33,376 nucleotides of DNA from Rhodospirillales bacterium (GTDB lineage Bacteria; Pseudomonadota; Alphaproteobacteria; Reyranellales; Reyranellaceae). How positions within the stretch are numbered: the stretch's first letter is position 1; each line of letters opens with the position of its first letter. The translations under genes were made by a program, and so were the position numbers. This document shows positions 10,401 through 27,621 of this stretch, piece by piece. The stretch lies in contig PLYQ01000295.1 in the NCBI GenBank assembly GCA_003153415.1, forward strand, positions 1-33,376, written 5' to 3'. The notes below the pieces were generated by a model. The model made no database searches and had not been told where the DNA came from. It saw only the letters and a list, made by a program, of their open reading frames with translations.

Positions 10401-13400
10401 GATCGATACCATGAAGTGGAACAGGCCGCCGAGAACGGTGGGCGCCTGACCGTCCCCTCGCCCGAGTTCACCCGCGAGGTGTCCGGCCAGCCGTTCGAGG
10501 AGCATCTGCGGGCAGGCGCCAGCTTTGACAACGGGGATGGCAAGGGCGACCCCTGGGCGTCCGTTGGGTCGCCAGAAGCCGCCGATAGGCCGGTTCCTAA
10601 CAAGACGCCTAGGGAAGCTACCGAGGCGTCAGAGAAGGCGCGCGCCGCTGCAGACCAACCGCCGGCGCCCGAGGGCAAGCCGCTACCGCCCACCACGCCG
10701 GCCGTGCGCAATCGCGTGGTCCGCGAGGAGCTTGCGGGCAAGAAGAAGAAGGCTGACGAGTACGACGCGCTGGGCATGACGGACGCCGAGCGGGCCCGCG
10801 CCTTCAACCGCCAGACCGAGGCGGACCGTGAAACCAAGCGCGGCTGGGACTTCAAGACCAAGTTTCCGCCTGAGACCGCCAGGGAAGGGCAGCCGAGCGT
10901 CTATCGCCACGGCCCCACGGAGGAAGATCAGCGCGGGCTGCACCAGGAGACGGCCCGGCTGCTGATCCAGGACCGCAACGCCCGCGACGCGGCGGACAAT
11001 GCTCTTGGGGCCAACGTCGATCCGAAGGACGGCAAGCCGCTTACGGCCGAACGCCGCAAGGCCTTGCAGGCCGAGGCCCATGAGCTCGATCAGCACATCC
11101 AGGATACCCTCGACTCCTACCAGGATCGCTTCGGTAAGCTGGCCCGCGAGGCCTTCGAGGCGCACGTCTGGCGCGAAGCCGCCGTTGAAACCCAGGCGCG
11201 ACCAGAGCCCACCTCGGAGAAGATGGACCTCGGCGGCGAGAAGGTCGACCAGCTGCTGATCCCGGGCGGCGAGCAATCGGCGCGCCAGGCCGCACAGGCC
11301 CGCGGTGAGACCCTGCGGCCGCGTGTGGCCCAGGAAGGCCCTGGCGACCTGTTCGCGCCTCCAGAGCCGCCGCAGCCCGGCCTATTCGACCAGCCAGAGC
11401 CGAAGGGCGGCAACGCCGCGCTCGAGCCCGAGGCCCGCGAGGCCAAGGCGGTGAAGGAAGGTCCTAAGCCAGGCGAGGGCTACGGCGACAAGAACAAGGT
11501 GTTCACCCGCGAGAGCCGCGACGAGGCGCTCAAGAAGCTCCGCGAGATCGCGCGCCGCTCGAACGCCGGCGTCGACCCCGAGCTCGTGCACTCCGGGATC
11601 ATGCTGGCGGGCTACCACGTGGAGGCCGGCGCGCGTGTCTTCGCCGACTACGCCCGGGCTATGCTGCAGGACCTGGGCGAGTGGTCTGCGCCCTACCTCA
11701 AAATGTGGTATAACGCCCTCCGCGACTATCCGGGCTTCGGCGCCGACGGCATGACGCCCACGCACGAAATCACCGATCAGTCCCTCGAGGAGGCGTGGCG
11801 CGATGTACGGGATAGCGGCGTCGGTCTGGAACCGGGTAGCGAGGGAACAACCGCTGCAGACCGACATGGCGAAGCAGCTGTTCCCAATGGACCAGGTGGA
11901 CCTGAACGAGGCGCTCCAGCAGAAGGAAGCGGACCTGAAGGCGCGGGGGGTGGACCCGCTGGTGGCGTCGGCCTACCTGACCGTGGCGCCGCTCCTGTGG
12001 GAGAAGAGCGCGCTGGCGAGCTTTTCGCGGGATCACCAGGGGCTGTCGGACGCGCTGCCGAACGTGGTGAGCCCGGGGGAAGCAACGATGTTGGCAACGA
12101 AGGAATACAGCCTGAGCGTATCCCAGCAACAGAGTTTGCAGACGCTGCTGATGACGCCGCCCACCTAGAGCCAGTCGCCCCGTCGGCGCACCCGGACGCG
12201 GCCAGCGTCGATGCGCCGCCGGTGCCGCACGAGCTCGATGAAGCCCTGCCGACGCTCTTTCCCGAGCAGCGAGCCGACGTGGCGTTTGCCGAAGAGCGCT
12301 TCGCCAAGGACGACGGCCACGGGGTGCTGTTCACCAACGGGACGGGCACGGGCAAAACATTTTCAGGGGGCGGCATCGTCAAGCGCTTCCATGACGCCGG
12401 CAAGGGCGACGTGCTGGTCATCGCGCCTAGCCAGGGCATCCTGGATCACTGGCGCGCCACGATGGAGAACCTCAAGGTTCCCTTCGATGTGCTCGAGGAT
12501 ACGGCCGGTGCGGGCGAGCCCGGCCGGCCGACCGGCACCACCTATGCGAACCTGGCCAACAACCGGACGCTGGCCGACCGCAAGTGGGACCTGGTGGTGG
12601 CCGACGAGGCCCACAACCTTTCGTCCAACGCCACCGGCGACGAGACCACCGGGCTGCAGAACTTCCGCGCGATCACCCATCATCCGGACCGTCTGCAGGC
12701 GAAGGCCAGGATGCAGCTGCGGGACGTGGTGGACCGCGTGGACGCCATGCGGGCTGCATTGGGCAAGAACCCTCCGGAGGCGCTCGCGCGGCAATGGGAG
12801 GACGCCCAGCGAGCGCTGGACGCGGAGGTCAAGCAGCGTGCGGAGATGACGGCCGCCGAGCCTCGGCCCAAGGCCGTCTTCCTCTCGGCCACGCCCTTCG
12901 CCTACGACAAGTCGATCGACTACGCGGAGAAGTACCTGTTCAACTACGGGCCCGAAACCGACCGCATGCGCTACAACGGGGGCAGCCCGCGCGATCAGTT
13001 TATGATGCGGAACTTCGGTTACCGCATGCGCTTCAACAAGCTCACGCGCCCCGACAACGCCGTCGAGTCCGACGTGATGGAGCGGCAGTTCCATGAGTGG
13101 ATGCGCCGCGCCGGCGCGCTGTCGGGCCGCGTGCTGACGGTCGACAAGGACTATGACCGGAAGTTCGTGCTGACCCCGGACGCCGAGGGCTCGCAGATCG
13201 ACAAGGCGCTCGACTTCCTGCACTCGGCCGACGATGGCAAGTTCCTGCCGCTGGCCGATGCGGTGCGCAAGCGCTTCGACTACCTGGCGCGCGCCCGGTT
13301 GCTCGAGGCCATGAAGGCCAAGGCCGCCATCCCGATCATCGAGAGGCACCTGGCCCTGGGCCGCAAGGTCGTGGTCTTCCACAATTACAACGTCGGCGGC

Positions 13401-16400
13401 GGCTTCGCGCCGTTCGAGTACGGCTCGGAAATGGAGTCGTCGGCGCGCTACGATCAGAAGACCTTGAAGCAGGTGCCGATCAGGCAGCTCCACGACGAGT
13501 TCGTTGCCCGCAATCCCTACGCGAAGGACATTGATCAGCACGTGGCCGGCCTCGAGTCCCCGCTCGAGCAGCTGCAGGCGCACTTCCCCGACGCCATGGC
13601 CTACAACGGCACCGTCCCCCGCGGGCAGCGCGCCAAGGCGATCGAGCAGTTCAACCAGGACGGCGGCCGCAAGAACCTGATCATCGTCCAGTCGGAAGCT
13701 GGACAAGCAGGGATCAGCCTGCACGACACCACCGGCCAGCACCAGCGGGTCACCCTAAACCTCGGCATGCCAGGGCGCCCCACCGCGGCGATCCAGCAGG
13801 AGGGCCGCACCTATCGGATCGGCCAGGCCTCCGATGCGATCTTCCGCTACATGAACACCGGGACCAATTGGGAGCGCTCGGCGTTTGCGCAGACGATCGC
13901 CCAGCGGGCGGGCACTGCGGAGAACCTGGCCCTGGGGGATCAGGCGCGCACGATGCGCGAGAGCTTCATCAACGCCTTCCTCGAGTCCGCCCCGAACCCG
14001 CCAGCGCGCGGCGAGGGCAAGGGCGGCAAGGCGGCGGACCGGCAGCTCGCCAAGGCTCTGTCGGCGTTCCAGAAGGCCAAGAGCTTCTATTTCGCCGAGG
14101 GCAAGAAGACCGGCGGCCGCGCCAGCCGCGAGGGCGTCGACTACTTCCCAACGCCAGAGCCCCTGGGGCTCAAGATGGTCGAGTGGGCGGACGCGCGGCC
14201 AGGCGAGCACATGCTCGAGCCCAGCGCGGGGCATGGGGCGATCGCACGGTTCTTCCCCGAGACCACCTCGCGGACCCTGGTCGAGCCGTCGCCGAACCTC
14301 GCCTCGCGAGCGGAGCTATCCAGCCCCGGCGCCCGGGTCCTGGTCAGCAAGTTCGAAGACCTCCACGCGGTCAACAAGTACCACGCGATCGTGATGAACC
14401 CGCCGTTCGGGACCGCCGGCGCCACGGCGATCGCCCACCTCGAGAAGGCGGCGCTGCACCTGGCCGACGGCGGCCGCATTGTCGCCTTGATCCCGCACGG
14501 CGCGACCGACGCGAAGTTTGAGCGCCTGATGGAGTCGGACGCGTTCAAGCACATCTACAAGGCCGCGGACATCAACCTGCCGGCGTCGACGTTCGAGCGG
14601 GCCGGCACCAAGATCAGTGCGCATGTGGTGGTGCTCGAGCGCGTGAACGACGCCGGCGCGCCCAAGCCGCAGGAGGTGCAGCGCGACTTCTCCAACGCCG
14701 AGAACATCACCCAGCTGTTCGACCGCCTCGAGGACACGAGCATCCCCGACCGGCTGGCCCCGATCTCGGCCGACCTGGATCCACAGCCCGCCCAGCGCAT
14801 CGAGGTGAGCCGTGCGGCCAAGCCGGCCACGTCGTTCGAGACCGGCCAGACCGTGCACAGCAAGACCGGCGAGGATCTCTTCGTCGCCAGCCCCCGCGTG
14901 CGCGTCAGCAGCGACGACTACAAGGCCACCCTGGCGATCGCCAAGGGGCACGACGGCTACTACTCGTCCTGGCGTGGCCCAGGCGCCATCCCGGGCTTCC
15001 AGTTCAAGACCGAGGCTGACCGCCAGGCCTTCCTCGATGAGACCAACGCCCAGCGTCGCGCGGAGATCAGCGGCGACGGCGCCTCGTTCGACCGCGCCGT
15101 GCCCCTCTACAGCGCCGTCCAGCGAACCGTGGAGCGCTCGCAGCAGAAGGTGGCGACGCCCGAGCAATGGCGCTCCACCCTCGAGAACGCGCCAGGCGTC
15201 AAGCGCGAGGAGCTCGAGTGGACCGGCGTCAACGACTGGCTCGATATGATGAAGGGCCAGAAGGTCACCAAGGCGGCCGTGCAGGCCTTCCTGAGCGAGC
15301 ACGGGGTGCGGGTCGAGGAGAAGGTGCTGGGCGCCGAGCTGCGGGACCAGGCGCGCTACCACCATGCCTCGGACGAAGACCTTGAGGAGCTCGCGACCGG
15401 GCAGGCCCAGGATCGGTATCACCAGGCCGTCTCTCAGGCCCACGACGAGCTTGGCGATGAGCCCGAGTACATGGCCTGGACCCTCCCCGGCGCGTCCGAC
15501 TATCGCGAGCTCCTGTTTACCCTCCCCGACGAGGCGACGCCACCAGCGACGCATTGGTCGACCCCGGGCGTTATGGCGCACGTGCGGTTCGACAGCAGGA
15601 CCGCGCCCGATGGCAAGAAGGTGTTGTTTGTTGAGGAGGTCCAATCGGATTGGCACAAACTTGGCCGCGAGCAAGGCTACGCCAAGCCGGGCACGCAGGA
15701 GCAACTTGATGCGGCCGCAAAGGCGCACGACAGGGCCGTAGACGCCCTCAAAGCCACGACCGACCGAATCCTCCCGATGGCCGATGATGTTTGGCGGCAC
15801 GAAGCCGGGGCGCGTGACCCTTCTAACGCTCCGTGGCGCGCAGGTTGGCACCCTAACATCGAGGACAATCCCACGCGCATGAACTCTAAGGTCGAAGCGG
15901 TCCGGAACTGGATAGTTCGTTCCGTCGATCGACCGCCGGCTCCCCTGGATCGTCTACTCGTCCAGCACAGGGGAGAGAGCTTGCGCGTCAATGAGGCCCT
16001 ACAAGCCTACCGCATTGCCGAAGGCTCCGCCGGCATCCCGGACGCCCCGTTCAAGTCGTCCTGGCCGGCGCTGACCATGCGTCGGATGATCGTGTGGGCA
16101 GCAGATCACGGCTTTGACCGTGTGGCCTGGACCACGGGTGATCAGCAAAACGACCGATACCCTGGACGGCCGGAAGAGGCCCAGGCCGGCATGCGCGCCT
16201 TCTACGACCGCAACCTGGTGAACATCACCAACGATATCATCAAGCGGTACGGGGAGAAGGTCTCAGACGGCCACGTCGACACGCACGCAGAGACCGGCCG
16301 CGCGTTCGCCGAAGGCCAGCGGGCGACGCCAGAAGGGCTCAAGGACGCCGTGCGCGCCGGCCAGGTGGCCGAGAGCCACGGCTTCGACGTCACCGACCGC

Positions 16401-19400
16401 ATGCGCGAGGCGGCGACCCAGGGCCTGCCGCTATTCAACCGCCCCGCCGAGCCGCCGGCAGCGCCAGCTGGCCGCCGCCCGCTGGCCGAGGGCGTCCTGC
16501 CGACCGACACGCCCGAAGTGGCGCGGATGATCAAGCAGGTGCACGACATAATCGGTCGCATAGCGCCCAAGGTCGAGGTGAAGGCCTATGCGAGCCTGAC
16601 CGAGAAGGCCACGGGCGCGCCGATCAGCGGCATGTTCGTGCGGGATGGCGACAAGAACCTGATCGCCTGGGCGCTGGACTCGGCCGACCACCCGTCGCTG
16701 GCTCGCCACGAGAGCGTGCACTACCTGCGGCAGCTCAAGTTCTTCAAGCCGGCCGAATGGTCCGCGCTCGAGTCGACCGCATCGAGCGAGAATTGGATGC
16801 AGCGCTACAACATCGAGCGGCTCTATCCCGACCTGGGGCCGGAGAAGCAGATGGAAGAAGCGATCGCCGAGCGCTACGGCGATTGGGGCCGCGGCGTCGG
16901 CGACGTCCACGATCTCCCGACCTTCGTTCGCGCCCTGTTCCAGCGCATCCAGCGGGCCCTTGGCGCGATCGCAGACGCCACGCGACAGGCCCTAGGGAAG
17001 GGCGTGACGGCCGAGGACGTCTTCAGGCGCATAGAGAGCGGCGAGGTTGGGGCCCGCACTCCTGGCGAGCCAGGGGCTGCTGGCGATAGCGTCTCGTTCG
17101 CCAGGGCGCCCAAGGAAGAGGGCGATACCCGGAGCTTCGTCAACCGCATCCTCGGCGAGGGCCTCGACACCGTTGGCCACAAGGTCGACCGCGCCGCTGC
17201 CCGCTTCCTGCCCGACCCGCTGATTGAGCTCACCGAGCACGTCCGGATGGGCCTGAACCCGATGGCCGCGGGCTCGGCGCGCGCCCAGGCGACGGCCAAG
17301 GACTTCGCCAACACGATGCGCGAGAACACCTGGGCGTGGAACCGCGTCGATACCCAACTCGAAAAGACGTTCACGCGCGACGAGCGTGAGGCCATGTGGC
17401 GGGCGGCCGACGAGGAGTCGGTGCTGCTGCAGCTGGGGGCCGAGGTGAAGGACGGCCAGGGCTTGAGTCGACTCACGCCGCCGCAGCGCGCGGTGGTGAA
17501 GGAATTGCAGGCCAGAGCCAACGACGCGTTCCAGCGGGCGCAGCAGCTGGGGATGACCAAGGCCGAGGGCTTGCCGAGCTACGTCCCCCGCATGGTGGTG
17601 GAAATGACCGCCGAAGGTGGCGCCCGGCGCGTGGGCGCCAGGGCGCGCGCCACGACGCCCGAGGGCGCCGGGCGCAACCTCACCACGACCACGGGCAACC
17701 TGCGACAGCGCAAGTACCTCACGACCGAAGAGACGGAGGGCGCTGCCCGCGAGGCGTTCGGCGAGAACGCCGCAGTGATCACCGATATCCGGACGCTCGC
17801 CCATGCGACGGGCGCGCTCGAGCAAGCGATCGCCGGGCGCCGGCTGATCAACACGATCAAGGAAATGGGCAAGAGCGGCGGCGAGGAGCTCGTGCAGGAG
17901 GGCGGCCGGACCAATGAAGGCGCGTTCACCCTCGATCATCCGGCGATGAAGGTGTGGGGCCCGAAGTTCGTGGTGGAGCACGAGACCGGCAAGCTCTCGA
18001 CCATCCGCGACCCCTCGACCGGCGGCGTCGTGATGGAGGCCAAGCCGCTCTACGTCTCCAAGGAGTTCGAGGGCCCGCTGCGCGCGGTGCTGACCAAGCC
18101 CACCGGCATGCTCGAGAAGGGCCTCATGTCGCTCAAGGGCAAGATTATGAGCGTGATCATGTACTCGCCGCTCATGCACAACGCGGTCATTTGGGGCAAG
18201 GCGCTCTCGGCCAATCCAGTGAGCGTCCTCACCTTCGACGTCTACCGCGAGGGATACCGGGCCAAGAACGACGTCGACACCATGCGCGAGGCCCTGCGGG
18301 CCGGCGTGGACCCCATCGGTCGGCGCTACTTCAACCAGGATATCACGGCCCTGGTCGAGCAACCGCAGATCTCGGCCGGGCGCTCCTGGACCGCGCAGCT
18401 GCTGGGCTCGCCCGTGGGCTGGGTGAACCGTGAGGCAGGGACCGCGGTCAAGGAGACCATCGATAAGCTGGGCGACCTTTGGCACAACACCTTCCTGTGG
18501 GATCGGGTCGCTGATCTCCAGATGGGCCTCTACACCCGCCTGCGCGACAGCTTCACCAGCCACGGCCTGGATCCGCAGAGCGCCCAGCGGGTCGCCGCGC
18601 ACTTCGCCAATCGCTACGCCGGCGCCCTGCCGATCGAGGCCATGTCGAAGATGGCGCGCACGACGGCGAACCTGGCGCTGTTCTCCCGCAGCTTCACCAT
18701 GACCAACATCGGGGCCTGGAAGGACGCGGTGGCGGGGCTGCCGACTGACGTACAGGCGCAGATCGAGCGTGACGCCGGCCTCAAGGGCCTGCAGCGGGCG
18801 CAGGGGACCGCGCGAGGCAAGGCCATGTCCCTGATCGTGCTGGACGTGGCGCTGGCCCACCTTGGGCTCCTGCTGGCCTCGAGCGCGGTCTATGGCGTCC
18901 ACCAACTGCTGAGCTCGCCGCAGCCATTCCATCCCGAGTGGGACAACGAGCCCGGCAAGCAGGACCGCTTCCTGATCGGCTACGGCGCCGACGGGACCGG
19001 GATCTATGGCCGGCTGCCAACCGGCAAGGTCGCGGAGGATCTGGTGACCTGGGTAACCGATCCGCTCGGCACCGAGCAGCGCAAGCTCAGCCCGTTCGCC
19101 AAGTTCGCGATGGAGCTCCAGTCCAACGACAAGGGCTTTGGCCGCAAGCTCTACGACCCCTACGACCAGACCGCCGCCGGCGATCTCCGGAATATCAGCC
19201 GCGTGGTCCTGGGCGCGGATATCTCGAACGTCCGGTCCCCCGACGACTTCTCTGGCGGCCTGCTGGGCTCGGTGGCCCCGGTGGGCGTCGTGCAGGGCGT
19301 GGCGCACCTGGGGAGTAAGAACCGCCAGGAGGGCTCTACCGCGCTGCTGCAGACCATGCTGCCGCTCTTTGGGATCACGGTGTCCAAGGGCTCGCCTGGC

Positions 19401-19712
19401 GGCCCGGCCTCCGGGGATATCTACCGGGCGCTGGACGAGCAGACCTTCCGGCTCAACGAGGCCATGCCCGGCGTCCGCGAGCAGATCCGCCAGGGCGACG
19501 TCCAGGGCGCGCGCCAGCGCCTCTCGACGCTGGGCGTCATCGGCAAGCGTGCAACCTACATCATCAGCGCGGCCCAGCACCCGGGCGTGCGCATCACCGG
19601 GCGCGAGCTGCTGAAGTTCAAGAGCGCCGCTGCTGCGGTGGACCCTGGCGACCAGGGGCAGTTCCAACAGGACGAGCAAGACCAACGCGCGCGCCAGGGG
19701 GTAACGCCATGA
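7422..19712 (+). CDS. Giant polyvalent protein: wall hydrolase, helicase, DNA methyltransferase, zincin and virion domains
   Basis: An uninterrupted ORF of 4096 residues in the place of the last P22-type ejection gene. Domains read in order: residues about 30-120, an M15-like peptidase pattern (H65, D77, H114-L-H116); about 160-280, a SleB/transglycosylase-like wall hydrolase (candidate E173, 'EFVNRSAQSG'); about 350-620, hydrophobic Gly/Ala segments; about 1400-1465, a DarB-associated helical domain; about 1600-2170, an SF2/SNF2-type helicase (Walker A K1645 in GTGTGKT, DEAH 1728-1731, SATP 1822-1825, and QQEGRTYRIGQ from 2125); about 2235-2420, an N6-adenine methyltransferase (EPSAG from 2266, NPPF 2326-2329); about 2580-2900, polyvalent-protein-associated domains (EELEWTG, VEEVQSDWH); a zincin (HESVH 3096-3100); and a helical C-terminus of virion type. 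Known polyvalent proteins and P1 DarB are injected and protect incoming DNA, and I infer the same here. Residues about 925-975 and 1461-1585 look out of frame (see embedded genes). Confidence 0.85.
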   Translation: MQDPWGSVGDTTAGYMDDASFKSSMDGIYGPGNWRQSGGWRSQARENQLRTQGAQTTAPGVTSAHSLGTLNAPGARDITVNGESPQIAAAQLQAHRFPAAQVYPEGAAGGQGGHLHIGMDPSINPPGGPPAADPWASVGASTPQIQRPGATPAPAAPTREAGDPELYKVILQEAGPNATPRHIAALASEFVNRSAQSGQSYIGVVTARDQYGPGYSSDTAEGKGWERVQSLPDNDPRLQRIAAVADPYLTRQVQPLPYTGHWSPGAAAATDESRPGWADDTGTPIGGNLFYSHPYGPGGQPAADPWASVGAATPTVQRPAPQEDQWASVGGQAALAAQPKPSPKRDLMGEGSRLLGGFVGSAETAGAQMLRGFGGIGDIVAQDMAAQAAGQGTITDPLTGVAEPVPEAIRPGMASIATQRTPVASPQVERLAAPMSEQGSSMTPTDMNFGEKLVAGAGGFVPLIGASLIDPLAGVAAFGAQGYEQSHAEALKAGKPEETAQSAGLANAGISMGAGALPLGPVLSPIVGRVGGGVIARVAARTAAAAAENAAQMGAMTAGSNVVAQKYYDPTRGTWQDVPEAAASGALAGGLIHGGHEAFAGVKGAFAGAPAATAEAQAQPLPATDAVQAYTDLTARQTAPGGPYGPPAEEAGAGAPAPPGGPPAPPDTSAAAIPQAPPPDYEAARAAEGAPLERMPAAINDVAAARTAPPQGPNLFQAIKSLGGIRNRDAAGTLDSDLMEALGEKRGPPGMINNKTGLSPDDMRLALQEQGWFGPGREDLGTTPNDLHDLIDRHVRNGPLTLQSLQDPASFEEHASRQNELDQAGVGSTDTDAVAASKLAAFRQEQDQASGPSMEALRDRAANLGLPHTEAMAYDELLGDVVEREAIQHENTDGFADDHDEREIDTVLTPDEHEWLSAAERGPRGEPGPTEGPKGPGRGPAPERATAQGHQELGQGAGGGGGEAGAFPEGSKLAHVDPEAIANAWAKGWAPFADRYHEVEQAAENGGRLTVPSPEFTREVSGQPFEEHLRAGASFDNGDGKGDPWASVGSPEAADRPVPNKTPREATEASEKARAAADQPPAPEGKPLPPTTPAVRNRVVREELAGKKKKADEYDALGMTDAERARAFNRQTEADRETKRGWDFKTKFPPETAREGQPSVYRHGPTEEDQRGLHQETARLLIQDRNARDAADNALGANVDPKDGKPLTAERRKALQAEAHELDQHIQDTLDSYQDRFGKLAREAFEAHVWREAAVETQARPEPTSEKMDLGGEKVDQLLIPGGEQSARQAAQARGETLRPRVAQEGPGDLFAPPEPPQPGLFDQPEPKGGNAALEPEAREAKAVKEGPKPGEGYGDKNKVFTRESRDEALKKLREIARRSNAGVDPELVHSGIMLAGYHVEAGARVFADYARAMLQDLGEWSAPYLKMWYNALRDYPGFGADGMTPTHEITDQSLEEAWRDVRDSGVGLEPGSEGTTAADRHGEAAVPNGPGGPERGAPAEGSGPEGAGGGPAGGVGLPDRGAAPVGEERAGELFAGSPGAVGRAAERGEPGGSNDVGNEGIQPERIPATEFADAADDAAHLEPVAPSAHPDAASVDAPPVPHELDEALPTLFPEQRADVAFAEERFAKDDGHGVLFTNGTGTGKTFSGGGIVKRFHDAGKGDVLVIAPSQGILDHWRATMENLKVPFDVLEDTAGAGEPGRPTGTTYANLANNRTLADRKWDLVVADEAHNLSSNATGDETTGLQNFRAITHHPDRLQAKARMQLRDVVDRVDAMRAALGKNPPEALARQWEDAQRALDAEVKQRAEMTAAEPRPKAVFLSATPFAYDKSIDYAEKYLFNYGPETDRMRYNGGSPRDQFMMRNFGYRMRFNKLTRPDNAVESDVMERQFHEWMRRAGALSGRVLTVDKDYDRKFVLTPDAEGSQIDKALDFLHSADDGKFLPLADAVRKRFDYLARARLLEAMKAKAAIPIIERHLALGRKVVVFHNYNVGGGFAPFEYGSEMESSARYDQKTLKQVPIRQLHDEFVARNPYAKDIDQHVAGLESPLEQLQAHFPDAMAYNGTVPRGQRAKAIEQFNQDGGRKNLIIVQSEAGQAGISLHDTTGQHQRVTLNLGMPGRPTAAIQQEGRTYRIGQASDAIFRYMNTGTNWERSAFAQTIAQRAGTAENLALGDQARTMRESFINAFLESAPNPPARGEGKGGKAADRQLAKALSAFQKAKSFYFAEGKKTGGRASREGVDYFPTPEPLGLKMVEWADARPGEHMLEPSAGHGAIARFFPETTSRTLVEPSPNLASRAELSSPGARVLVSKFEDLHAVNKYHAIVMNPPFGTAGATAIAHLEKAALHLADGGRIVALIPHGATDAKFERLMESDAFKHIYKAADINLPASTFERAGTKISAHVVVLERVNDAGAPKPQEVQRDFSNAENITQLFDRLEDTSIPDRLAPISADLDPQPAQRIEVSRAAKPATSFETGQTVHSKTGEDLFVASPRVRVSSDDYKATLAIAKGHDGYYSSWRGPGAIPGFQFKTEADRQAFLDETNAQRRAEISGDGASFDRAVPLYSAVQRTVERSQQKVATPEQWRSTLENAPGVKREELEWTGVNDWLDMMKGQKVTKAAVQAFLSEHGVRVEEKVLGAELRDQARYHHASDEDLEELATGQAQDRYHQAVSQAHDELGDEPEYMAWTLPGASDYRELLFTLPDEATPPATHWSTPGVMAHVRFDSRTAPDGKKVLFVEEVQSDWHKLGREQGYAKPGTQEQLDAAAKAHDRAVDALKATTDRILPMADDVWRHEAGARDPSNAPWRAGWHPNIEDNPTRMNSKVEAVRNWIVRSVDRPPAPLDRLLVQHRGESLRVNEALQAYRIAEGSAGIPDAPFKSSWPALTMRRMIVWAADHGFDRVAWTTGDQQNDRYPGRPEEAQAGMRAFYDRNLVNITNDIIKRYGEKVSDGHVDTHAETGRAFAEGQRATPEGLKDAVRAGQVAESHGFDVTDRMREAATQGLPLFNRPAEPPAAPAGRRPLAEGVLPTDTPEVARMIKQVHDIIGRIAPKVEVKAYASLTEKATGAPISGMFVRDGDKNLIAWALDSADHPSLARHESVHYLRQLKFFKPAEWSALESTASSENWMQRYNIERLYPDLGPEKQMEEAIAERYGDWGRGVGDVHDLPTFVRALFQRIQRALGAIADATRQALGKGVTAEDVFRRIESGEVGARTPGEPGAAGDSVSFARAPKEEGDTRSFVNRILGEGLDTVGHKVDRAAARFLPDPLIELTEHVRMGLNPMAAGSARAQATAKDFANTMRENTWAWNRVDTQLEKTFTRDEREAMWRAADEESVLLQLGAEVKDGQGLSRLTPPQRAVVKELQARANDAFQRAQQLGMTKAEGLPSYVPRMVVEMTAEGGARRVGARARATTPEGAGRNLTTTTGNLRQRKYLTTEETEGAAREAFGENAAVITDIRTLAHATGALEQAIAGRRLINTIKEMGKSGGEELVQEGGRTNEGAFTLDHPAMKVWGPKFVVEHETGKLSTIRDPSTGGVVMEAKPLYVSKEFEGPLRAVLTKPTGMLEKGLMSLKGKIMSVIMYSPLMHNAVIWGKALSANPVSVLTFDVYREGYRAKNDVDTMREALRAGVDPIGRRYFNQDITALVEQPQISAGRSWTAQLLGSPVGWVNREAGTAVKETIDKLGDLWHNTFLWDRVADLQMGLYTRLRDSFTSHGLDPQSAQRVAAHFANRYAGALPIEAMSKMARTTANLALFSRSFTMTNIGAWKDAVAGLPTDVQAQIERDAGLKGLQRAQGTARGKAMSLIVLDVALAHLGLLLASSAVYGVHQLLSSPQPFHPEWDNEPGKQDRFLIGYGADGTGIYGRLPTGKVAEDLVTWVTDPLGTEQRKLSPFAKFAMELQSNDKGFGRKLYDPYDQTAAGDLRNISRVVLGADISNVRSPDDFSGGLLGSVAPVGVVQGVAHLGSKNRQEGSTALLQTMLPLFGITVSKGSPGGPASGDIYRALDEQTFRLNEAMPGVREQIRQGDVQGARQRLSTLGVIGKRATYIISAAQHPGVRITGRELLKFKSAAAAVDPGDQGQFQQDEQDQRARQGVTP
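10195..10341 (+). CDS. Candidate embedded small gene, +1 frame inside the giant ORF
   Basis: A possible 48-residue basic helical protein in the frame +1 to the polyvalent ORF, starting at GTG 10195 with AAAGAGG about 8 bases upstream and ending at TAG 10339-10341. It reads as a clean amphipathic helix pair (SLGRLKALKALAAAPHL, then ERRRKVIKNLVRAQ). Nearly all of its third codon positions are G or C, which is the habit of real genes in this window. In the same stretch the polyvalent frame has mostly A or T at third positions and gives a Gly/Pro/Glu-rich string that looks like an out-of-frame reading. The start is uncertain because no ATG is available. Function unknown. Confidence 0.4.
   Translation: MSLGRLKALKALAAAPHLSERRRKVIKNLVRAQAAVVAKRELFLKALN
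11803..12168 (+). CDS. Embedded gene, +1 frame inside the giant ORF
   Basis: A 121-residue ORF starting at ATG 11803, with a strong GAGGAGG Shine-Dalgarno at 11787-11793 (9-base spacing). It lies wholly inside the polyvalent ORF in the +1 frame. The product looks like a normal folded protein: MAKQLFPMDQVDLNEALQ, then a Lys/Glu helix, 'DPLVASAYLTVAPLLWEK' and a Ser/Gln-rich end. Third codon positions are almost all G or C in this frame, while the polyvalent frame shows many A or T there and yields a Gly/Pro/Glu/Arg string without structure. I therefore think this frame is the older coding frame. No family recognised. The helicase part of the giant ORF resumes about 50 bases after its stop, with no good start codon of its own. 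Confidence 0.65.
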   Translation: MYGIAASVWNRVAREQPLQTDMAKQLFPMDQVDLNEALQQKEADLKARGVDPLVASAYLTVAPLLWEKSALASFSRDHQGLSDALPNVVSPGEATMLATKEYSLSVSQQQSLQTLLMTPPT

Positions 19713-20402: not shown

Positions 20403-21605
20403 ATGGGCATGGAATATCGCGGCTTCGATCTCGATATCTTCCCCGGCGTCGCGGCCCTCGAGGACGCGTTCGCGCAGGGGTTTTCCTGGTGCGCATCCTA
20501 CCTGCCGGCGCCGAGCCACAGCAACGCGGGCTGGCCGAGCTATCCCATCCTCGCTGCGACCAAGCTCAAGATCGCGCCCGTGTGGGTCGGCGCGCAGATC
20601 GAGGGGCCCGGTAGCCATGCCGTCGGTGCGGCCCAAGGGAAGATCGAGGGGCAAAACTGCGTCTCCGAGTTGACCACGCGCCAGTATCCGCCCGGCAGCG
20701 GCGTCGTCTTCGACACCGAGAACGGCGCTCCGCTATCGCCCCTGCAGCAGGCGCACCTGACGGCCTGGCGCGATGCTGTGCGCGCCGGCGGCTTCCGTCC
20801 CATGGTCTACGGCAGCTATGAGAATTTCGTCGCCCTGGCCCTGATCTTCGCCGCCGAGGACGTGTGGGAGTTCGAGCTCCTGCCGTCGGCACCCAATAAT
20901 TTCAGCGGCGTGGCGATCCAATGGGAGCAGTCGACGCCGCTGCGCTTGGCCGGCTACGACTACAACGTCGACCTCAGCGCCTCGACGGTGGCCGATCCGG
21001 CGGCCGGCGCCGCGCCTGTGATAGCGGAGACTGCAATGACCATGGGCATAAACCAGGACGTCGGCGCGGCGACAGCCGAACAACCGAACAGCCCTGCGCT
21101 CGCAGCCCCGATCCCCGTCGTAGTGACAGCCCCCGCGCCTGTCCCGGTGACCACCAAGGTCACCCAGGCCGGGCCGCCCATCGCTGCCGGCCTCATGGCC
21201 GCTGCGACCGCCGCGGTCGGCGCCGTGCATGTGGCGGCCTACCACGTCGACCTCAGCGGACTGGTCGACGCCGCCGCGCCCTTCCTGATCGCCGGCGTGA
21301 TCCTGCCGCTCATCGTTTGGGGCTTCGGCCGGGGCCTGCAACTGATGCACCTCTCGGCGCAGTCGACTGCGGCTCAGTTCGTACTGACGGCCGTCGAAAA
21401 TGCCGTCAGAAGTGAGGCGCAGCAGGGCCTGACCTATGTCGATAACCACGCGGTGGTGACCCTGAGCAATCAGGCCGCCGCCAATGTGTTGAACTACGTC
21501 AACACCGCCGTACCGAAGAGGCTCGCGGCCTCCGGGATTTCGCCCGATCAGCTCGGCGGCCTGATCGCGAACAGGCTCAACCAGGTCCAGACCCCACAAA
21601 GTTGA
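20403..21605 (+). CDS. DUF1906-type glycoside-hydrolase-like endolysin with holin-like membrane tail
   Basis: A 400-residue protein. Residues about 4-190 match the DUF1906 (Rv2525c-like) TIM-barrel family: 'YRGFDLDIFPG' at the start with D8 and D10, the strand 'KIAPVWVGAQIEG', and 'VVFDTENG' with D104 and E106 as likely active-site acids. Residues about 200-258 are an Ala/Pro/Val linker. Two membrane segments follow (about 260-282 and 290-312), and then a C-terminal helix pair ('FVLTAVENAVRSEAQQG', 'PKRLAASGISPDQLGG') typical of small alphaproteobacterial phage holin-like proteins. I infer a peptidoglycan-cleaving lysin tied to the membrane. It lies after a membrane protein gene and ends at a hairpin terminator. 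The joining of both parts in one chain is unusual. Confidence 0.65.
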   Translation: MGMEYRGFDLDIFPGVAALEDAFAQGFSWCASYLPAPSHSNAGWPSYPILAATKLKIAPVWVGAQIEGPGSHAVGAAQGKIEGQNCVSELTTRQYPPGSGVVFDTENGAPLSPLQQAHLTAWRDAVRAGGFRPMVYGSYENFVALALIFAAEDVWEFELLPSAPNNFSGVAIQWEQSTPLRLAGYDYNVDLSASTVADPAAGAAPVIAETAMTMGINQDVGAATAEQPNSPALAAPIPVVVTAPAPVPVTTKVTQAGPPIAAGLMAAATAAVGAVHVAAYHVDLSGLVDAAAPFLIAGVILPLIVWGFGRGLQLMHLSAQSTAAQFVLTAVENAVRSEAQQGLTYVDNHAVVTLSNQAAANVLNYVNTAVPKRLAASGISPDQLGGLIANRLNQVQTPQS

Positions 21606-21623
21606 GGGGGCCGAAGCCCCCTC
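21604..21623. terminator. Hairpin between convergent genes (UUCG loop on the minus strand)
   Basis: A perfect 8-bp stem (21604-21611 with 21616-21623) and a 4-base loop. It begins within the stop codon of the lysin gene. Read from the minus strand the loop is C(UUCG)G, the very stable tetraloop, and it directly ends the pentamer array that trails the minus-strand gene. There is no long T run on either side, so it may be an RNA 3' end protector rather than a classic terminator. Confidence 0.6.
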
Positions 21624-21755
21624 CCATGCCAGTCCAAGCCCTGCCGTAGCACACCAAACCCGACCCTAGCGCACCAAGCCGTGCCGCAGCACACCCCGCC
21701 TATCCATGCCCGACCCGACCTTGCCCTTGCTCGCCGAACCACGCCACCCCAAGGC
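21621..21755 (-). repeat. Downstream GGYNN pentanucleotide array, 27 units
   Basis: Read on the minus strand, the 135 bases that follow the stop codon of the RAMP-like gene split exactly into 27 pentamers. All 27 begin with G, 22 begin with GG and the other five with GC, and the third base is C or T in 22 of 27. The last two positions vary freely. The phase never slips from the base after TGA down to the terminal hairpin. Examples are GGCAT (twice), GGCGT, GGTCG (three times) and GGCTT (twice). It has no long exact repeats and no spacers, so it is not CRISPR or a simple satellite. What matters seems to be a G pair every 5 nt. Confidence 0.85.
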
Positions 21756-22382
21756 TCAGGCTTCGCGCACCTTCCAGTGCGCCACAGCGAACCGCCCATA
21801 GGTCGGCCGAAAGTCTCCGACGCCGATCAGACGTCCGGCGTCGTCCAGCACGCGCCGGAGCAGCACCGGCGGCACGTACTCGGGCAAATTGACCATGAGC
21901 TCGACCTCCGCGCGCCAGCCCTCTTTCATGGCCGGCCGTGTGCGCGTGATCCCGTTGCGCTGGACCATGACGCGGCGCCGATCGAGGAAGTCCGGCTCTG
22001 TCACGCCCATCGACGCCAGCGGCGTGAGGCTGATCACCGCAGCCTTGAACAGGTCCATCGCCGACTTGCGCGGCGACCTCGGGTCCTGCTGGAACTTGGC
22101 CGCGTGGATGACGGCCTGGCGCAGATACTCGCCCGGCAGCGCGATCTCTCCTGCGTCGTTGCGATAGAGGTACGACTCGATATCGTCGCTCTTCTTGGCC
22201 GCCGAGCCCTTTGCGGCCTTGGATTTGGTCTCAACAGCGTCGCAGTTCCACCTGTGGAAAAGAATGGGCGCCACCCCCTCTACGGCCACGGCGACCGTGT
22301 AGGGGAAGGACATTTCGAGCATGTCCTCACCGCCGTTTGTCGTTTGGTCGGCCTTCAGCGCGACCACGTTTGCCTTAGCCAT
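21756..22382 (-). CDS. RAMP/Cas7-like protein, standalone
   Basis: A 208-residue protein. Features that resemble the RAMP fold of Cas7/Csm3-type proteins: a first strand leading to 'VEGVAPILFHRW' (34-45), the turn and helix 'LPGEYLRQAVIHAAK' (82-96), which is like the 'iPGSsLkGalR' element, a basic stretch 'LDRRRVMVQRNG' (133-144), and a Gly-rich end 'GVGDFRPTYGRF' (187-198) like the RAMP glycine loop. The family tie is my inference; I recall similar uncharacterised phage proteins but no function. ATG 22382 is chosen because GGAGAGG (22387-22393) precedes it, while the longer frame to 22457 only translates the repeat leader. It is flanked by GGYNN arrays and faces an RHH gene across an inverted repeat. 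An RNA- or ssDNA-binding role is likely. Confidence 0.6.
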   Translation of the reverse strand: MAKANVVALKADQTTNGGEDMLEMSFPYTVAVAVEGVAPILFHRWNCDAVETKSKAAKGSAAKKSDDIESYLYRNDAGEIALPGEYLRQAVIHAAKFQQDPRSPRKSAMDLFKAAVISLTPLASMGVTEPDFLDRRRVMVQRNGITRTRPAMKEGWRAEVELMVNLPEYVPPVLLRRVLDDAGRLIGVGDFRPTYGRFAVAHWKVREA

Positions 22383-22383
22383 T

Positions 22384-22433
22384 TGGCCTCTCCTTGCCTT
22401 ACCACGCCATGCCCGTCCTAAGCAGGGCTTGGC
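22384..22433 (-). repeat. Upstream GGNNN pentanucleotide leader, 10 units
   Basis: On the minus strand, the 50 bases before the RAMP-like start codon (separated from it by one A) form ten in-phase pentamers. The first three begin with GC and the next seven with GG. GGCAT, GGCGT and GGCAA occur here and in the downstream array. The Shine-Dalgarno is embedded as GGAGA-GG. If the promoter candidate upstream is right, the transcript would start close to the first unit, so the array would be the 5' leader. Confidence 0.75.
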
Positions 22434-22447
22434 TTGAGGTGGAATTG

Positions 22448-22486
22448 CTGTCATCAATTACCCATGCCGTCAATAACTGATGACAG
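22448..22486. promoter_or_regulatory. Inverted-repeat operator and minus-strand promoter candidate
   Basis: Two 13-base arms (22448-22460 and 22474-22486) are inverted copies with one mismatch, separated by 13 bases; their centres are 26 bases apart. Inside lies a minus-strand -35-like TTGACG (22473-22468), and a weak -10 would fall near 22450-22445. The spacer also contains the ATG of the RHH gene. An RHH protein bound here would block its own start and the RAMP-like promoter. The inverted repeat is seen directly; its role is inferred. Confidence 0.55.
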
Positions 22487-22646
22487 AAAAGCACGCGGGC
22501 GCCCCAAGGTGGGCTCCGTGTCCGTCGGCGTGCGCTTTCCGCCCGACGAACTTGCGAACCTTGACCGCTGGGTAGATGCTCAGCAAAAGCCGAGTCGGCC
22601 CGAGGCCATCCGGCAGATTGTGCGCGAGCGCCTGGAAAGCGAATAG
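22464..22646 (+). CDS. Ribbon-helix-helix (CopG/Arc-type) regulator
   Basis: A 60-residue protein. After a basic arm (DDRKARGRPKVG) comes the DNA-binding strand 'VSVGVRFPPDEL', then two helices ('LANLDRWVDAQ' and 'RPEAIRQIVRERLES'), the standard RHH layout and size. ATG 22464 is used; an in-frame TTG at 22434 is less likely. There is no clear Shine-Dalgarno, and the start lies within the spacer of a 13-base inverted repeat, which suggests autorepression. It is divergent from the RAMP-like gene and 11 bases before the lipoprotein gene. It probably controls one or both directions. Confidence 0.7.
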   Translation: MPSITDDRKARGRPKVGSVSVGVRFPPDELANLDRWVDAQQKPSRPEAIRQIVRERLESE

Positions 22647-22657
22647 GAACCCACACC

Positions 22658-23011
22658 ATGAAGCGCCTTCTCGGTCTTGCCGCCATCCTGCTCGCCGCGG
22701 CCTGCGTTGCCGCCTGCAACGGCATCCCCGCGTCGTCGCTGATCCCGCCATCGGCCGACGTGGCGGTCCTGCAGGCCGATACGACCCTCGACGGGATCTA
22801 CAACGCCACGGCCCAACTCTACCTGGCCGCCGCGCCGTCGCTGTCGGTCTCGCTGCACGCCCAGGCCAAGGGCCTCCTGCAGAAAGCGCGCCCCATCGTC
22901 CAGGCGGCCGACCACGCCCAGGCGCTCGGTGATGCGACGACCTTCCAGGCGCAGTACGCTGAGGCGATGGCGCTGATCAACCAGGTGAAGGCACTCCTGC
23001 CGGCGTCATGA
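22658..23011 (+). CDS. Small lipoprotein
   Basis: A 117-residue protein with a lipoprotein signal: basic start (MKRLLG), hydrophobic core and a lipobox V17-A18-A19-C20 (C16 is a second candidate). The mature part is Ala/Gln-rich and helical ('SLSVSLHAQAKGLLQKARP', 'YAEAMALINQVKALLPAS'). The lipid would place it in the outer or inner membrane. A role as outer-membrane spanin subunit is possible because lysis genes lie nearby, but it lacks the Pro-rich character of Rz1-like proteins. It overlaps the HNH gene by four bases (ATGA). Confidence 0.6.
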   Translation: MKRLLGLAAILLAAACVAACNGIPASSLIPPSADVAVLQADTTLDGIYNATAQLYLAAAPSLSVSLHAQAKGLLQKARPIVQAADHAQALGDATTFQAQYAEAMALINQVKALLPAS

Positions 23012-23532
23012 CCGAGCGCTGGCTTCCAGTCGCGGGCCACGAGGGCCGGTACGAGGTGTCTGACCTCGGGCGTGTGCGCTCGTTCGTCAACTCGCGCGGA
23101 AACCTAAAGTCGGTCCCCACATATCTGTCGCTTCGGCCGCGCAAGGCCGGAAACACTGGCCACGGCTATGTCATCGTGTTCCTCGGTCAGGACGATAGGC
23201 GCTACGTTCACGAGCTTGTGCTGACGACCTTCGTCGGGCCGAGGCCCCCCGGGATGGAGTCGTGCCACGGCGATGACGTCCGCCACAACAATCGCCTGGG
23301 CAATCTTTGTTGGGGAACCCACAAGAAGAACCTCGCCGACATGACCTCTCGGGGTCGGCGCAAGGCCCTCCTTACTGACGATGATGTGCGATGCATCCGG
23401 GCCGAGCCTAATTTCTACGGCGTCTGCGCAATGCTTGCGCGATGCTTTGGTGTTAAGAGCGCCGTTATTGAGAAAGCAAGACGCGGGACCTCGTTCAAGA
23501 GGTTGCTCCCGCTGGAAATGGAGAGAGCCTGA
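23008..23532 (+). CDS. HNH homing endonuclease with NUMOD4 domain
   Basis: A 174-residue protein. Residues 4-26 are a NUMOD4 motif ('WLPVAGHEGRYEVSDLGRV'). The HNH core spans about 66-105: H68 in 'YVHELVLTTFVG', H87 in 'MESCHGDD', N94/N95 and the ending 'NLCWGTHKKNLADM'. The C-terminal part (about 120-165) looks like a small helix-turn-helix that could add DNA specificity. Such enzymes cut DNA at a specific site and often spread between phages as free-standing genes. It is inserted between two small genes with overlapping start and stop codons on both sides, so it has become part of the operon. Confidence 0.8.
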   Translation: MTERWLPVAGHEGRYEVSDLGRVRSFVNSRGNLKSVPTYLSLRPRKAGNTGHGYVIVFLGQDDRRYVHELVLTTFVGPRPPGMESCHGDDVRHNNRLGNLCWGTHKKNLADMTSRGRRKALLTDDDVRCIRAEPNFYGVCAMLARCFGVKSAVIEKARRGTSFKRLLPLEMERA

Positions 23533-24926: not shown

Positions 24927-25061
24927 TCAGTCTTCCTCGTCGGCCTCAAAGGCGTCGTGGGCGCAGTCATCGCACAGCAGCATCCCGGTCAGCTCGTAGG
25001 CCTCGACGGTGCTAGTCTCGTTCCCGTCGAGCTCTGCCTTGCACCGCTCGCAGAAGTTCAT
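24927..25061 (-). CDS. Small zinc-ribbon protein
   Basis: A 44-residue protein with two CxxC pairs, 'FCERCKAEL' (C4, C7) and 'LLCDDCAHD', the pattern of a one-zinc ribbon. The acidic tail (FEADEED) is typical of small phage early proteins. Its start overlaps the recT stop (ATGA at 25058-25061). The longer frame back to 25253 runs antisense-like through recT and is not used. Last gene of the leftward operon; partner unknown. Confidence 0.6.
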   Translation of the reverse strand: MNFCERCKAELDGNETSTVEAYELTGMLLCDDCAHDAFEADEED

Positions 25062-26773
25062 TCGTAGTCCTCGGCGGTGGCCTCGACCTCGGTCGGAGCC
25101 AGCGCGTGCTTCCTGGTCGTCAGCGCGCGATCCAGGGCGTCTCTGGCTGGCTCGGCCAGGGCCTTCCACGCGGGGTTGGCCATCGAGTGCACGGTCGCTG
25201 CGAGGGCGCTCAGCGTGGCGAGGTGCTCCTCCCAATCGACGTAGCAGCGCCACGCCTTCAACTCGGTGCGCATGTCGATGTTGAGCTTGAGCTCATCCAC
25301 CCGGGCGTAGGCGATGCGGCGCGCGGGCTCGCGCGGCGGCACGTGGTCCCTCCACTCCTCAGTCCGCATCAATTCGGTGAGCGCGTGGCTGATCGACGGC
25401 CAATCGTTCGCTTCCGCCACCGCGTCGGCGTAGTCGCCAAACGCGCCCAAGGCGTCGTCCTCAGCCTCCGGGCCCGGCGAGGCGTCTGAGGTAGCCGGGG
25501 ATGGCGACTCCCCCTCCGCGCCCTCCTGGCTGGCCTCCTGGGCCTGCTCAGCCTCCGCGTGGGCCGCATAGGCGCTGTAGGCGGTGGCGGCGCTCGGGTG
25601 GATGCTTTTGACCGCCTCGCCGTCCTTGTAGAGGTTGCGGGCCTTGTGGTTGTTCAGCGGCTCGTTGGCGATGATGTAGTTCTCGCCGGCCAGCGGAAAG
25701 CCGGGGCAGAGCTTGTCGGGCTTGGGGGTCCTAGTGTTCGCGGCTTCGGCGATGGATGGCTTCTTTGTCGCGGTCGACGCGGCCGTTGAAGCGCTCGACG
25801 CAGCTGGGGCAGATCCCTTGTCGGGGGCTGGGTCCGCCGCAGCCGAGGCAGACCCATCGGGCTTTGGGTTCTCAGGTTCCTTCTCGCCATCGCCGGACTT
25901 GGGCGATTGCTGCTGCTGGCCAGAGGTTTCCGCCGCTGTAGCGCCAGACGCACCCGTGGCAGAGGCCGACGTATCCTTGTCGCCCTCCGCAGCCGGGGCA
26001 TCGCTGCCCTGGGGGCCCGTTTCGCCCTCGGCGGATTTTGACGGATCCTGACGGTTTTCGACGGAATGCGCCGGCGCGAGCTTCCTGGCCGCGCCCTTGC
26101 GCCTGTCGGCCGTCGCGTCAATCGCCGGCGCATCGGCCGCGCGCGCGTCGAGGGTCTCGAACGACGTCGCCACGTCGTCCCTGGGGACCGAGGCCGCCTC
26201 CTCGCGGTCGTAGACGCCCAGGAGCACGTCAGGCCGGTGGCGCCGGGCCCAGGCGCGGATGGTGTAGTAGCCGAGCTGCTGGTCGGGGTCGGACGTCCAG
26301 AGCGGCGAGTTCTTCGGGTTGATCTTGCTGAAGAGCGGGCTCTCGAGCGGGACCTCCTCACCGTCGGGCGTGATGATCGTCACGGTGCACCGACGCGTGG
26401 CGCCCTCGCCGGTGTAGCTGTACTTCGGATAGCCCACGTGCGGCACAAGCTTGAGCACCACGGCGGCGATCAACTGCGCCTCGTAGGCCATCCGGTCGTT
26501 GACGGAGTAGTTCTTGTTGGCGACCGCGAAGGGCTCCATGCCCCAATGGAAGGCCTGCATTGAGACGGCCAGGCAGGCGCCGGGCGCCTCGCGCAGATGC
26601 TTCGGCACCGCGACGCCGGCGCGCGACATGAGCTGCGCAAAGGCCACGACCTCGCCGAGGTTCGTCGGGATCAGAGACACCGAGGCGGCGTCGATGTGCA
26701 TATCGATCGACGTGGCCCGGGCAGGCACGCGGATTTGGTCGGCTTCGACAAGGGCGGTGGATTCGTCGGTCAT
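25058..26773 (-). CDS. recT: RecT-family single-strand annealing protein with long C-terminal extension
   Basis: A 571-residue protein. Residues about 25-190 carry the RecT core: 'LGEVVAFAQLMSRAGVAVP', 'GACLAVSMQAFHWGMEPF', 'MAYEAQLIAAVV', and the closing 'GYYTIRAWARRHRPDVLLG' followed by 'VYDREE'. It should anneal complementary single strands produced by the exonuclease encoded just upstream. Residues about 215-360 are low complexity (Ser, Ala, Glu, Pro, Gln), and about 360-571 form an extra part with 'CPGFPLAGENYIIANEPLN' and a helical end. RecT proteins are usually near 270-370 residues, so this is a large extension. ATG 26773 overlaps the exonuclease stop by four bases; the longer frame to 27562 is a shadow of the exonuclease gene. 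Confidence 0.85.
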   Translation of the reverse strand: MTDESTALVEADQIRVPARATSIDMHIDAASVSLIPTNLGEVVAFAQLMSRAGVAVPKHLREAPGACLAVSMQAFHWGMEPFAVANKNYSVNDRMAYEAQLIAAVVLKLVPHVGYPKYSYTGEGATRRCTVTIITPDGEEVPLESPLFSKINPKNSPLWTSDPDQQLGYYTIRAWARRHRPDVLLGVYDREEAASVPRDDVATSFETLDARAADAPAIDATADRRKGAARKLAPAHSVENRQDPSKSAEGETGPQGSDAPAAEGDKDTSASATGASGATAAETSGQQQQSPKSGDGEKEPENPKPDGSASAAADPAPDKGSAPAASSASTAASTATKKPSIAEAANTRTPKPDKLCPGFPLAGENYIIANEPLNNHKARNLYKDGEAVKSIHPSAATAYSAYAAHAEAEQAQEASQEGAEGESPSPATSDASPGPEAEDDALGAFGDYADAVAEANDWPSISHALTELMRTEEWRDHVPPREPARRIAYARVDELKLNIDMRTELKAWRCYVDWEEHLATLSALAATVHSMANPAWKALAEPARDALDRALTTRKHALAPTEVEATAEDYE

Positions 26774-27621
26774 GTGTTCGAGATCCTCTGTTGATAGTAG
26801 TTCGGGGTTTCGTAGGGCTCGGGCTCTTTGGGATAGCCGGGCCAGCTGCGCTCGCGGAGGCACTTCGCCCACAGCTCCATCGCCCGCGCGATCTGGCGCT
26901 CGGCCGCGTATTGGGTGTTGGTCGCGGGGTAGAGGGTGCGCACGCCATAGGGCGGATAGTTCTCGACCACCAGGTTCGCGAAGCGCACGGCGCCGACGTC
27001 CGGGAGCACCTGGGAGAGCCCGCGGGGATAGAACACCCCCTGCACGTCGTAGCCGCTGTCGCTGGCGGCCCTGCCGAAGTTCTCGGCGTTGGCGTTGATC
27101 CGCAGCACCTTGGGGTCCAGGATCAGGCCCAAGGGGCGGCAGAGCACGTCCAGCTGGGCCCGGCACCATATCTCGCCGTACATCGTGCGCTCTTTCCAGA
27201 TCAGCACGACCTCGGTCTCGTAGGGGTGGCCCTCGCAGGCGCGCTCGATCGCCGCCACCAGGATCCGCGCCACATCGCGGGCGCGGACAAGCTCGGCCTC
27301 GAGCACCGGGATGCGGTTGTTGGCGATGGCCAGGTCCCGCGCTTCGCGCGCCGAGCTGTCGCGGTAGTCCCGATAGCGGATCGGGCTTATGTCGCGCCCC
27401 CGGCCAAGGGCAATGCGGTGCACGGCCTCGCCGAAATACTGCGTCAGGCTCGACTGCAGGGCTGGGCCATAGGGGTTGAGCCTGGGGTGCTGGTAGGCGC
27501 CGTGAAGCGGCGAGCGCAGCAGGTAGGGGATAATGCTCTGGTTCAAGCTCGGCCGCTCGCACGGATCGGCCTGATAGGTCTTCGCGTCCATGTCGCGGTA
27601 GATCCCGACGTCGTAGATCAA
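26770..27621 (-). CDS. PD-(D/E)XK exonuclease (DUF3799-like), partner of RecT
   Basis: A 283-residue nuclease. The start 'YDVGIYRDMDAKTYQADP' followed by 'SLNQSIIPYLLRSPLHGAY' matches the usual N-terminus of the DUF3799 group. Catalytic elements of the fold: acidic residues near E135/E137, D158 in 'RAQLDVL', D169-P-K171 as the D-x-K pair, and Q194 in 'YDVQGVFY'. The enzyme should resect duplex DNA to give single strands for RecT, which follows with a four-base overlap. I chose the TTG at 27621, which overlaps the upstream stop (TTGA) and has GAGGA upstream, because the conserved N-terminus lies before the first ATG. Confidence 0.75.
   Translation of the reverse strand: MIYDVGIYRDMDAKTYQADPCERPSLNQSIIPYLLRSPLHGAYQHPRLNPYGPALQSSLTQYFGEAVHRIALGRGRDISPIRYRDYRDSSAREARDLAIANNRIPVLEAELVRARDVARILVAAIERACEGHPYETEVVLIWKERTMYGEIWCRAQLDVLCRPLGLILDPKVLRINANAENFGRAASDSGYDVQGVFYPRGLSQVLPDVGAVRFANLVVENYPPYGVRTLYPATNTQYAAERQIARAMELWAKCLRERSWPGYPKEPEPYETPNYYQQRISNT

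Follow-up and report, generated by a model that had tools for sequence, protein, structure and literature searches.

VIPR (Viral Interference Programmable Repeat) is a system built around the RAMP protein Vipr and found mostly in phages and prophages. It was described in a preprint of April 2026 (bioRxiv 2026.04.26.720920, PMC13142463), which is the source of the background given here. In this system, the vrRNA consists of 9–16 YNNGG repeats and a 3′ tail; GGY is the scaffold, and NN supplies the guide letters, which pair with dsDNA in such a way that one base is skipped between pairs (PMC13142463). The RNP represses transcription, and most of its predicted natural targets belong to satellites and prophages, that is, competing mobile elements. 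Vipr binds its own pentamer RNA, which is held by a glycine-rich loop and a thumb, and the released vrRNAs, of about 100 nt, act on DNA. According to the same source, seven VIPR types can be distinguished, some with staggered, overlapping arrays (fig. S18 therein) or one vrRNA, and a vap (vipr-accessory) gene, which varies by type, is typical of the system. Moreover, VIPR is PAM-less and very small, and its authors propose that it is older than CRISPR and related to CRISPR ancestors (PMC13142463). In the titles and abstract openings of the literature searched, arrays of this kind are described nowhere besides this preprint. The first-pass annotation of the DNA treated here had noticed G-rich pentamer runs and knew of no described function for them, a statement overtaken by the preprint, which describes one.

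The window, that is, the whole analysed stretch of 33,376 nucleotides (contig PLYQ01000295.1 of a Rhodospirillales bacterium), contains a locus of this kind surrounded by phage genes (Table 1). Since the protein, the array, the usual strand arrangement and the phage setting are all present, the locus is filed as a VIPR member: it is considered a phage-borne VIPR system with a probability of roughly 0.88, the function of this copy being judged from its relatives. The kind of system has thus already been published, and the window holds a previously undescribed member of it.

Table 1. Features of the vipr locus and of its surroundings in the window.
Feature	Positions	Strand or orientation	Evidence or reading
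vipr gene, 208-residue single-domain RAMP (Cas7-like) protein	21756–22382	minus	PHROG 4652, PDB 36pp, predicted fold
GGY/NN array, 27 units	21621–21755	minus	presumed vrRNA guide tract(s); score 48.5, unit counts
Short pentamer run, 10 units	22384–22433	minus	possible second or degenerate vrRNA, or leader; score 15.5
UUCG-capped hairpin, 8 pairs	21604–21623	minus	presumably the 3′ tail of the vrRNA and/or a terminator between the convergent genes
Endolysin-like gene	20403–21605	convergent to vipr	PHROG 291, E 6e-4
Ribbon-helix-helix (CopG-like) gene, 61 aa	22461–22646	plus, divergent from vipr	Pfam RHH_1, E 2e-5
Polyvalent protein, 4096 residues, with helicase, methyltransferase and DarB-like antirestriction segments	7422–19712	plus	
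Open frame of 834 residues whose middle part contains a RecT single-strand-annealing domain	25058–27562	minus	

The protein of the window matches PHROG 4652 (E 4.1e-19), a family whose function is annotated as unknown, and the same family is matched by all 76 aligned relatives. This alignment covers the window and the viral-contig loci, 76 of the 79 sequences passing the length and coverage filter having been kept after thinning at 80% identity. PDB entry 36pp, 'SUSP1 Vipr protein', is found with E 6.8e-42 by the profile of the 76 relatives and with E 1e-6 by the single sequence. The AlphaFold model calculated from this alignment has a pLDDT of 92.3 and a pTM of 0.84. In the Foldseek search, which gave 810 rows with E up to 10, every one of the best 50 is a CRISPR effector chain (type VII Cas7, Csm subunits or Cas7-11), the best at 6.1e-8; 36pp is not among these best 50 in the PDB copy to 8 April 2026, which has no bearing on the fold. 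By VIA, the model aligns with type VII Cas7 over 162 residues with a Z of 12.9 and with Csm3 with a Z of about 12. The RAMP/Cas7 fold proposed in the first-pass annotation is therefore borne out by the predicted model, by Foldseek and by the nearest folds in VIA. Pfam, NCBIfam and PADLOC yielded no family for the window protein, and the Cmr6 and Csm3 models gave weak matches only, each in one of the 76 relatives. The vipr frame is open, and the window copy has nine residues that are invariant or nearly invariant in the family. G183, G187, R192, G196 and F198 are conserved to this degree among the aligned relatives, which would be consistent with a glycine-rich RNA-holding loop.

The main array begins at the first position past the vipr TGA (21756–21758) and runs away from the gene as 27 pentamers whose phase is exact across 135 bases; all 27 units begin with G, 22 with GG and 18 with GGY. 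Its phase score is 48.5, the highest value among 100 first-order Markov randomisations of the window being 16.5, and the best scores elsewhere in the window are 10.0 on the plus strand and 9.0 on the minus strand. The earlier counts (27 downstream and 10 upstream units, GG in 29 of the 37, a UUCG hairpin at the end) thus hold, and the period-5 signal, for which a comparison with the rest of the genome had been suggested, is at this strength confined to the array within the window. The strict-GGY fraction of the window array, 0.64 over 28 scored units, stands against a median of 0.70 in 115 loci, which places the window 45th from the lowest. The impression, gained by eye, that the array consists of two duplicated guides was rejected, 1058 of 2000 shuffles being equally good.

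Seven of the ten units of the upstream run start with GG. Because its score lies within the upper tail of the shuffled windows, this run is not significant by itself and counts only through its place and strand. It is separated from the vipr ATG by one base, and a Shine-Dalgarno-like AAGGAGAGG occurs within its last units, so that part of the run may be a ribosome-binding site; self-regulation through binding of Vipr to this leader of its own is possible. A similar arrangement of run and start is seen in the viral locus L127. A start codon abutting an array was also considered as a general trait and rejected: it occurs in 18 of 100 loci, many of which are start-calling artefacts.

At the other end, the 51 nt around the hairpin fold with a z of −2.01, 6 of 200 shuffles being as stable. 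The hairpin shares two bases with the end of the endolysin-like gene, which is convergent, and could therefore also be a terminator. Rfam reported no known RNA, hammerhead included, in 20500–23500, and no sigma-70-like promoter was recognised in 21400–22800. No vap gene is seen in the vipr operon, and no same-strand gene directly follows the array, where the convergent gene ends; the ribbon-helix-helix gene is a possible but unsupported vap candidate.

The link between protein and array was followed in both directions. Starting from the protein, a same-strand array within 1.5 kb was found in 24 of 24 relatives and an opposite-strand array in 0 of 24, versus 1.5% for shuffled flanks; one further locus, L146 (E 1e-4, one internal stop, no open frame by profile, no array), had been removed from the original 25 before this count. 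The 24 relatives comprise 5 of 122 phage records (L001–L005), 4 viral loci (L127–L130) and 15 loci from other genomes (L131–L143, L145 and L147), L144 and L006 having been left out as copies of the window. Starting from the array, at least 120 viral stretches match the exact nine-unit GGYNN pattern, and 91 of 120, among the matches listed, encode the Vipr family. The family profile was iterated over the same loci, and its first round already gave 117 of the final 118 frames. Among these same listed matches, a same-strand array lies within 1.5 kb of vipr in 90 of the 91 loci, and nine of the 91 have opposite-strand arrays within that distance, which are additional in eight and sole in L069, the only one of the 91 with arrays solely on the strand opposite vipr. 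The same-strand rule for array and vipr is strong but not absolute. The first-pass proposal of one gene-array system shared by phages, together with the check for period-5 arrays beside homologues that it had called for, is upheld by both counts. In addition, the 5807 pooled units show G in 95%, G in 79% and C or T in 84%, followed by two nearly flat positions; this profile is the published GGY/NN pattern and supports the VIPR reading.

Another Vipr, a distant one (profile E 1.5e-30), is encoded within the host's genus in L181 (1257–1483 and 2494–2583), which comes from one other of 75 family genomes. Besides a single array on the vipr strand, this locus has three opposite-strand arrays, and two of these lie directly behind the gene; it is the 25th protein-found relative and was added after the set of 24 had been drawn. 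In L008, a relative within the clade of the window, several vrRNA-like tracts of 10–17 units alternate with tails of about 49 nt that are almost identical to one another, which cleanly illustrates the combination of a repeat tract with a constant tail.

Among the matches listed, 29 of 120 array stretches show no vipr, some being cut by the stretch end and some lying within long open frames. In eleven of them (L014, L022, L027, L035, L056, L063, L073, L084, L097, L119 and L120), the array is not part of a long open frame and has 1 kb or more of sequence on either side. A lax profile search of the vipr-less stretches, which are contig pieces beyond which the gene may lie, gave nothing convincing; L088, with a weak Vipr match (E 0.0098) cut at the stretch end, may hold a truncated vipr. 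The non-coding arrays without a detectable vipr, such as those of L027, L035, L063 and L120, are possibly orphan vrRNAs that use the protein of another element, or else the gene lies beyond the stretch.

The NN letters were also treated as words: those from 555 arrays, which belong to 146 loci, were searched for in the sequences of these loci after masking of the arrays. Compared with shuffled units, words occurred more often at a skip of 1 (z 9.8) and at a skip of 4 (z 7.6), both of which match the codon period, while skips of 0, 2 and 3 gave z of 1.1, 1.5 and 2.2, and the reversed unit order scored almost as high as the true one (0.2365 vs. 0.2385). Since skip 4 and the reversed order are nearly as good, the signal reflects a codon-like composition of NN and singles out neither a skip length nor a target. 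This codon-period signal would fit targets located in genes, with the skips falling on wobble positions.

Direct searches brought no acceptable target. For the NN tracts of the 555 arrays against the same loci, unmasked, the top skip-1 score was 21.5, and the shuffled set reached at least 24. With exact 1-nt-skip seeds from the window array, matches in viral contigs (units 1–9, 10–18, 19–27, 19–26 and 14–21) ended at the seed or one unit beyond, and in genome contigs (units 18–26) no match continued convincingly past the seed. These exact matches look like chance; the best agreement outside the seed, that of L160 and L162 (19 of 36 bases, P about 0.002 each before correction for 33 loci), was set aside as unconvincing. 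In the genome assembly to which the window belongs, units 12–21 found no target with up to 3 mismatches; for decoded peptides, one reading had no phage match and 0 of 4 matched in PHROGs. This outcome counts mildly against function, or it means that the target is absent from the collections or matches inexactly.

It is against these results that other explanations of the array have to be weighed. It might mainly be a cis element, that is to say, Vipr would bind its own transcript and regulate its own synthesis or stability with no DNA targets. This is suggested by the upstream run, which stops one base short of the ATG and overlaps the presumed ribosome-binding site, by the main array starting at the first base past the stop codon, and by the target searches without a find. 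Nevertheless, a run abuts the start codon in just the 18 loci mentioned above, several of them with starts called inside the array, and many relatives have several separate arrays, often past a second gene, while the vrRNAs released by the published relatives act on DNA (PMC13142463); a mainly cis role is accordingly held to be quite improbable. That the locus is a decaying VIPR, with an intact protein beside a drifted guide tract out of use, is unlikely: 9 of the 27 units are non-GGY and 5 lack GG, and no target was found, but the G of position 1 is kept in all units, the phase is unbroken, the GGY purity is mid-range among the 115 loci, and the vipr frame is open with its nine conserved residues.

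A low-complexity or coding by-product, in which the period-5 G would come from GC-rich drift or from an opposite-strand gene, could draw on the GC content of the window (67.6%) and on the open frames that overlap the array on both strands. It is scarcely credible given the distance between the array score and that of the shuffles, the tie of the array to one protein family and mostly to one strand, and a period of 5, which is not a multiple of three.

In a maximum-likelihood tree of 99 rows, the window falls in a 15-row clade (support 99/98), apart from the clade of wV8 (Felixounavirus) with LESphi2 and Medea1 (Pseudomonas phages). The tree includes neither SUSP1 nor the P. fulva system, and we take wV8, LESphi2 and Medea1, judged from their hosts, to stand nearest the SUSP1 and Pseudomonas systems of the preprint. 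The largest scored tract per locus, breaks tolerated, has a median of 38 units (up to 182) in the window's clade vs. 21 in 95 other loci (p 0.013). For the longest run without any break, the median of the clade, the window left out, is 19 units (up to 63), vs. 13 in 101 others (p 0.025). Both p values are approximate, as the loci are not independent by descent and some of them were chosen by their arrays. It may tentatively be suggested, with more doubt than confidence, that the clade is a VIPR form storing its guides in long in-phase tracts, where overlapping registers would give many staggered guides, and that the vipr-less arrays of some phages use the protein of another element. Against such a form speaks the clade member DSL-LC04, which has a second gene; staggered arrays as such have already been mentioned for VIPR (PMC13142463).

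If the locus is a VIPR system, as preferred here, a minus-strand transcript would carry both vipr and the pentamer array. Vipr subunits, with one RAMP domain each, would be arranged along the array, presumably at one subunit for every five bases. As the scaffold, GGY would be bound by the protein and left unread, and the NN letters of successive units would be displayed. The RNP would then pair NN with dsDNA, leaving one unread base between read pairs (the 1-nt skip rule), and, once bound, would block transcription in a competing element, be it a phage, a prophage or a satellite; we infer expression and like action of this copy, taking RNA binding, the skip rule, repression and the target class from the published relatives. 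The 27 units may give one or more overlapping guides. The first-pass annotation had anticipated a 5-nt step with a fixed GG, which agrees with the pooled units and with the published GGY/NN, and its remark that NN could encode something has proved correct in so far as NN carries guide information in the published relatives (PMC13142463). It had also supposed that the protein may coat or process its own transcript, or a related ssDNA: the protein of the relatives does bind its own pentamer RNA, but this RNA guides the RNP to dsDNA (PMC13142463). The earlier interpretation is supported in part, and its central guess for the most part.

The locus thus adds a VIPR member in a clade outside that of the compared named phages (wV8, LESphi2 and Medea1). 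Moreover, the two-way test, in which the array predicts the protein and the protein predicts the array, independently supports the published link between Vipr and GGY/NN from sequence alone. As the array can be recognised from the raw letters, such loci can be found without annotation.

Compared with the VIPR of Escherichia phage SUSP1 and of the P. fulva prophage, which are type II as we read the preprint (PMC13142463), the window has in common the Vipr family, the flanking non-coding GGY/NN, the terminal hairpin and the phage setting; it differs in having 27 units in one tract, vs. 9–16 in the published systems, and in being without a same-strand second gene directly downstream. In phage DSL-LC04 (OR003939.1), the protein is 61% identical to that of the window and is likewise accompanied by same-strand pentamer arrays, which lie before the gene and not behind it; a second gene follows, and the protein is annotated as 'helix-turn-helix transcriptional regulator'.

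TRAP (trp RNA-binding attenuation protein) also follows a short spacing, binding RNA in which a short fixed trinucleotide recurs about every 5 bases. The window protein, in contrast, has a predicted RAMP fold and the motif GGY, and TRAP is not counted as a relative. In CRISPR, the backbone formed by type III-A Csm3 or by type VII Cas7 is a guide-RNA filament with a fixed step. The window protein is predicted to share the RAMP fold with both over residues 25–208 (Z about 11–13), whereas the identity is about 6–15%. The window shows no evenly spaced repeat family of at least 20 nt within 150 nt that would look like a CRISPR array, and among the 17 distinct window proteins scanned in addition to vipr no cas family was found. 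CRISPR class 1 systems obtain crRNA from a CRISPR array, and their effectors have a disruption at every sixth position, as stated in the preprint (PMC13142463); the window locus combines one small protein with a pentamer RNA, whose unit is 5 nt.
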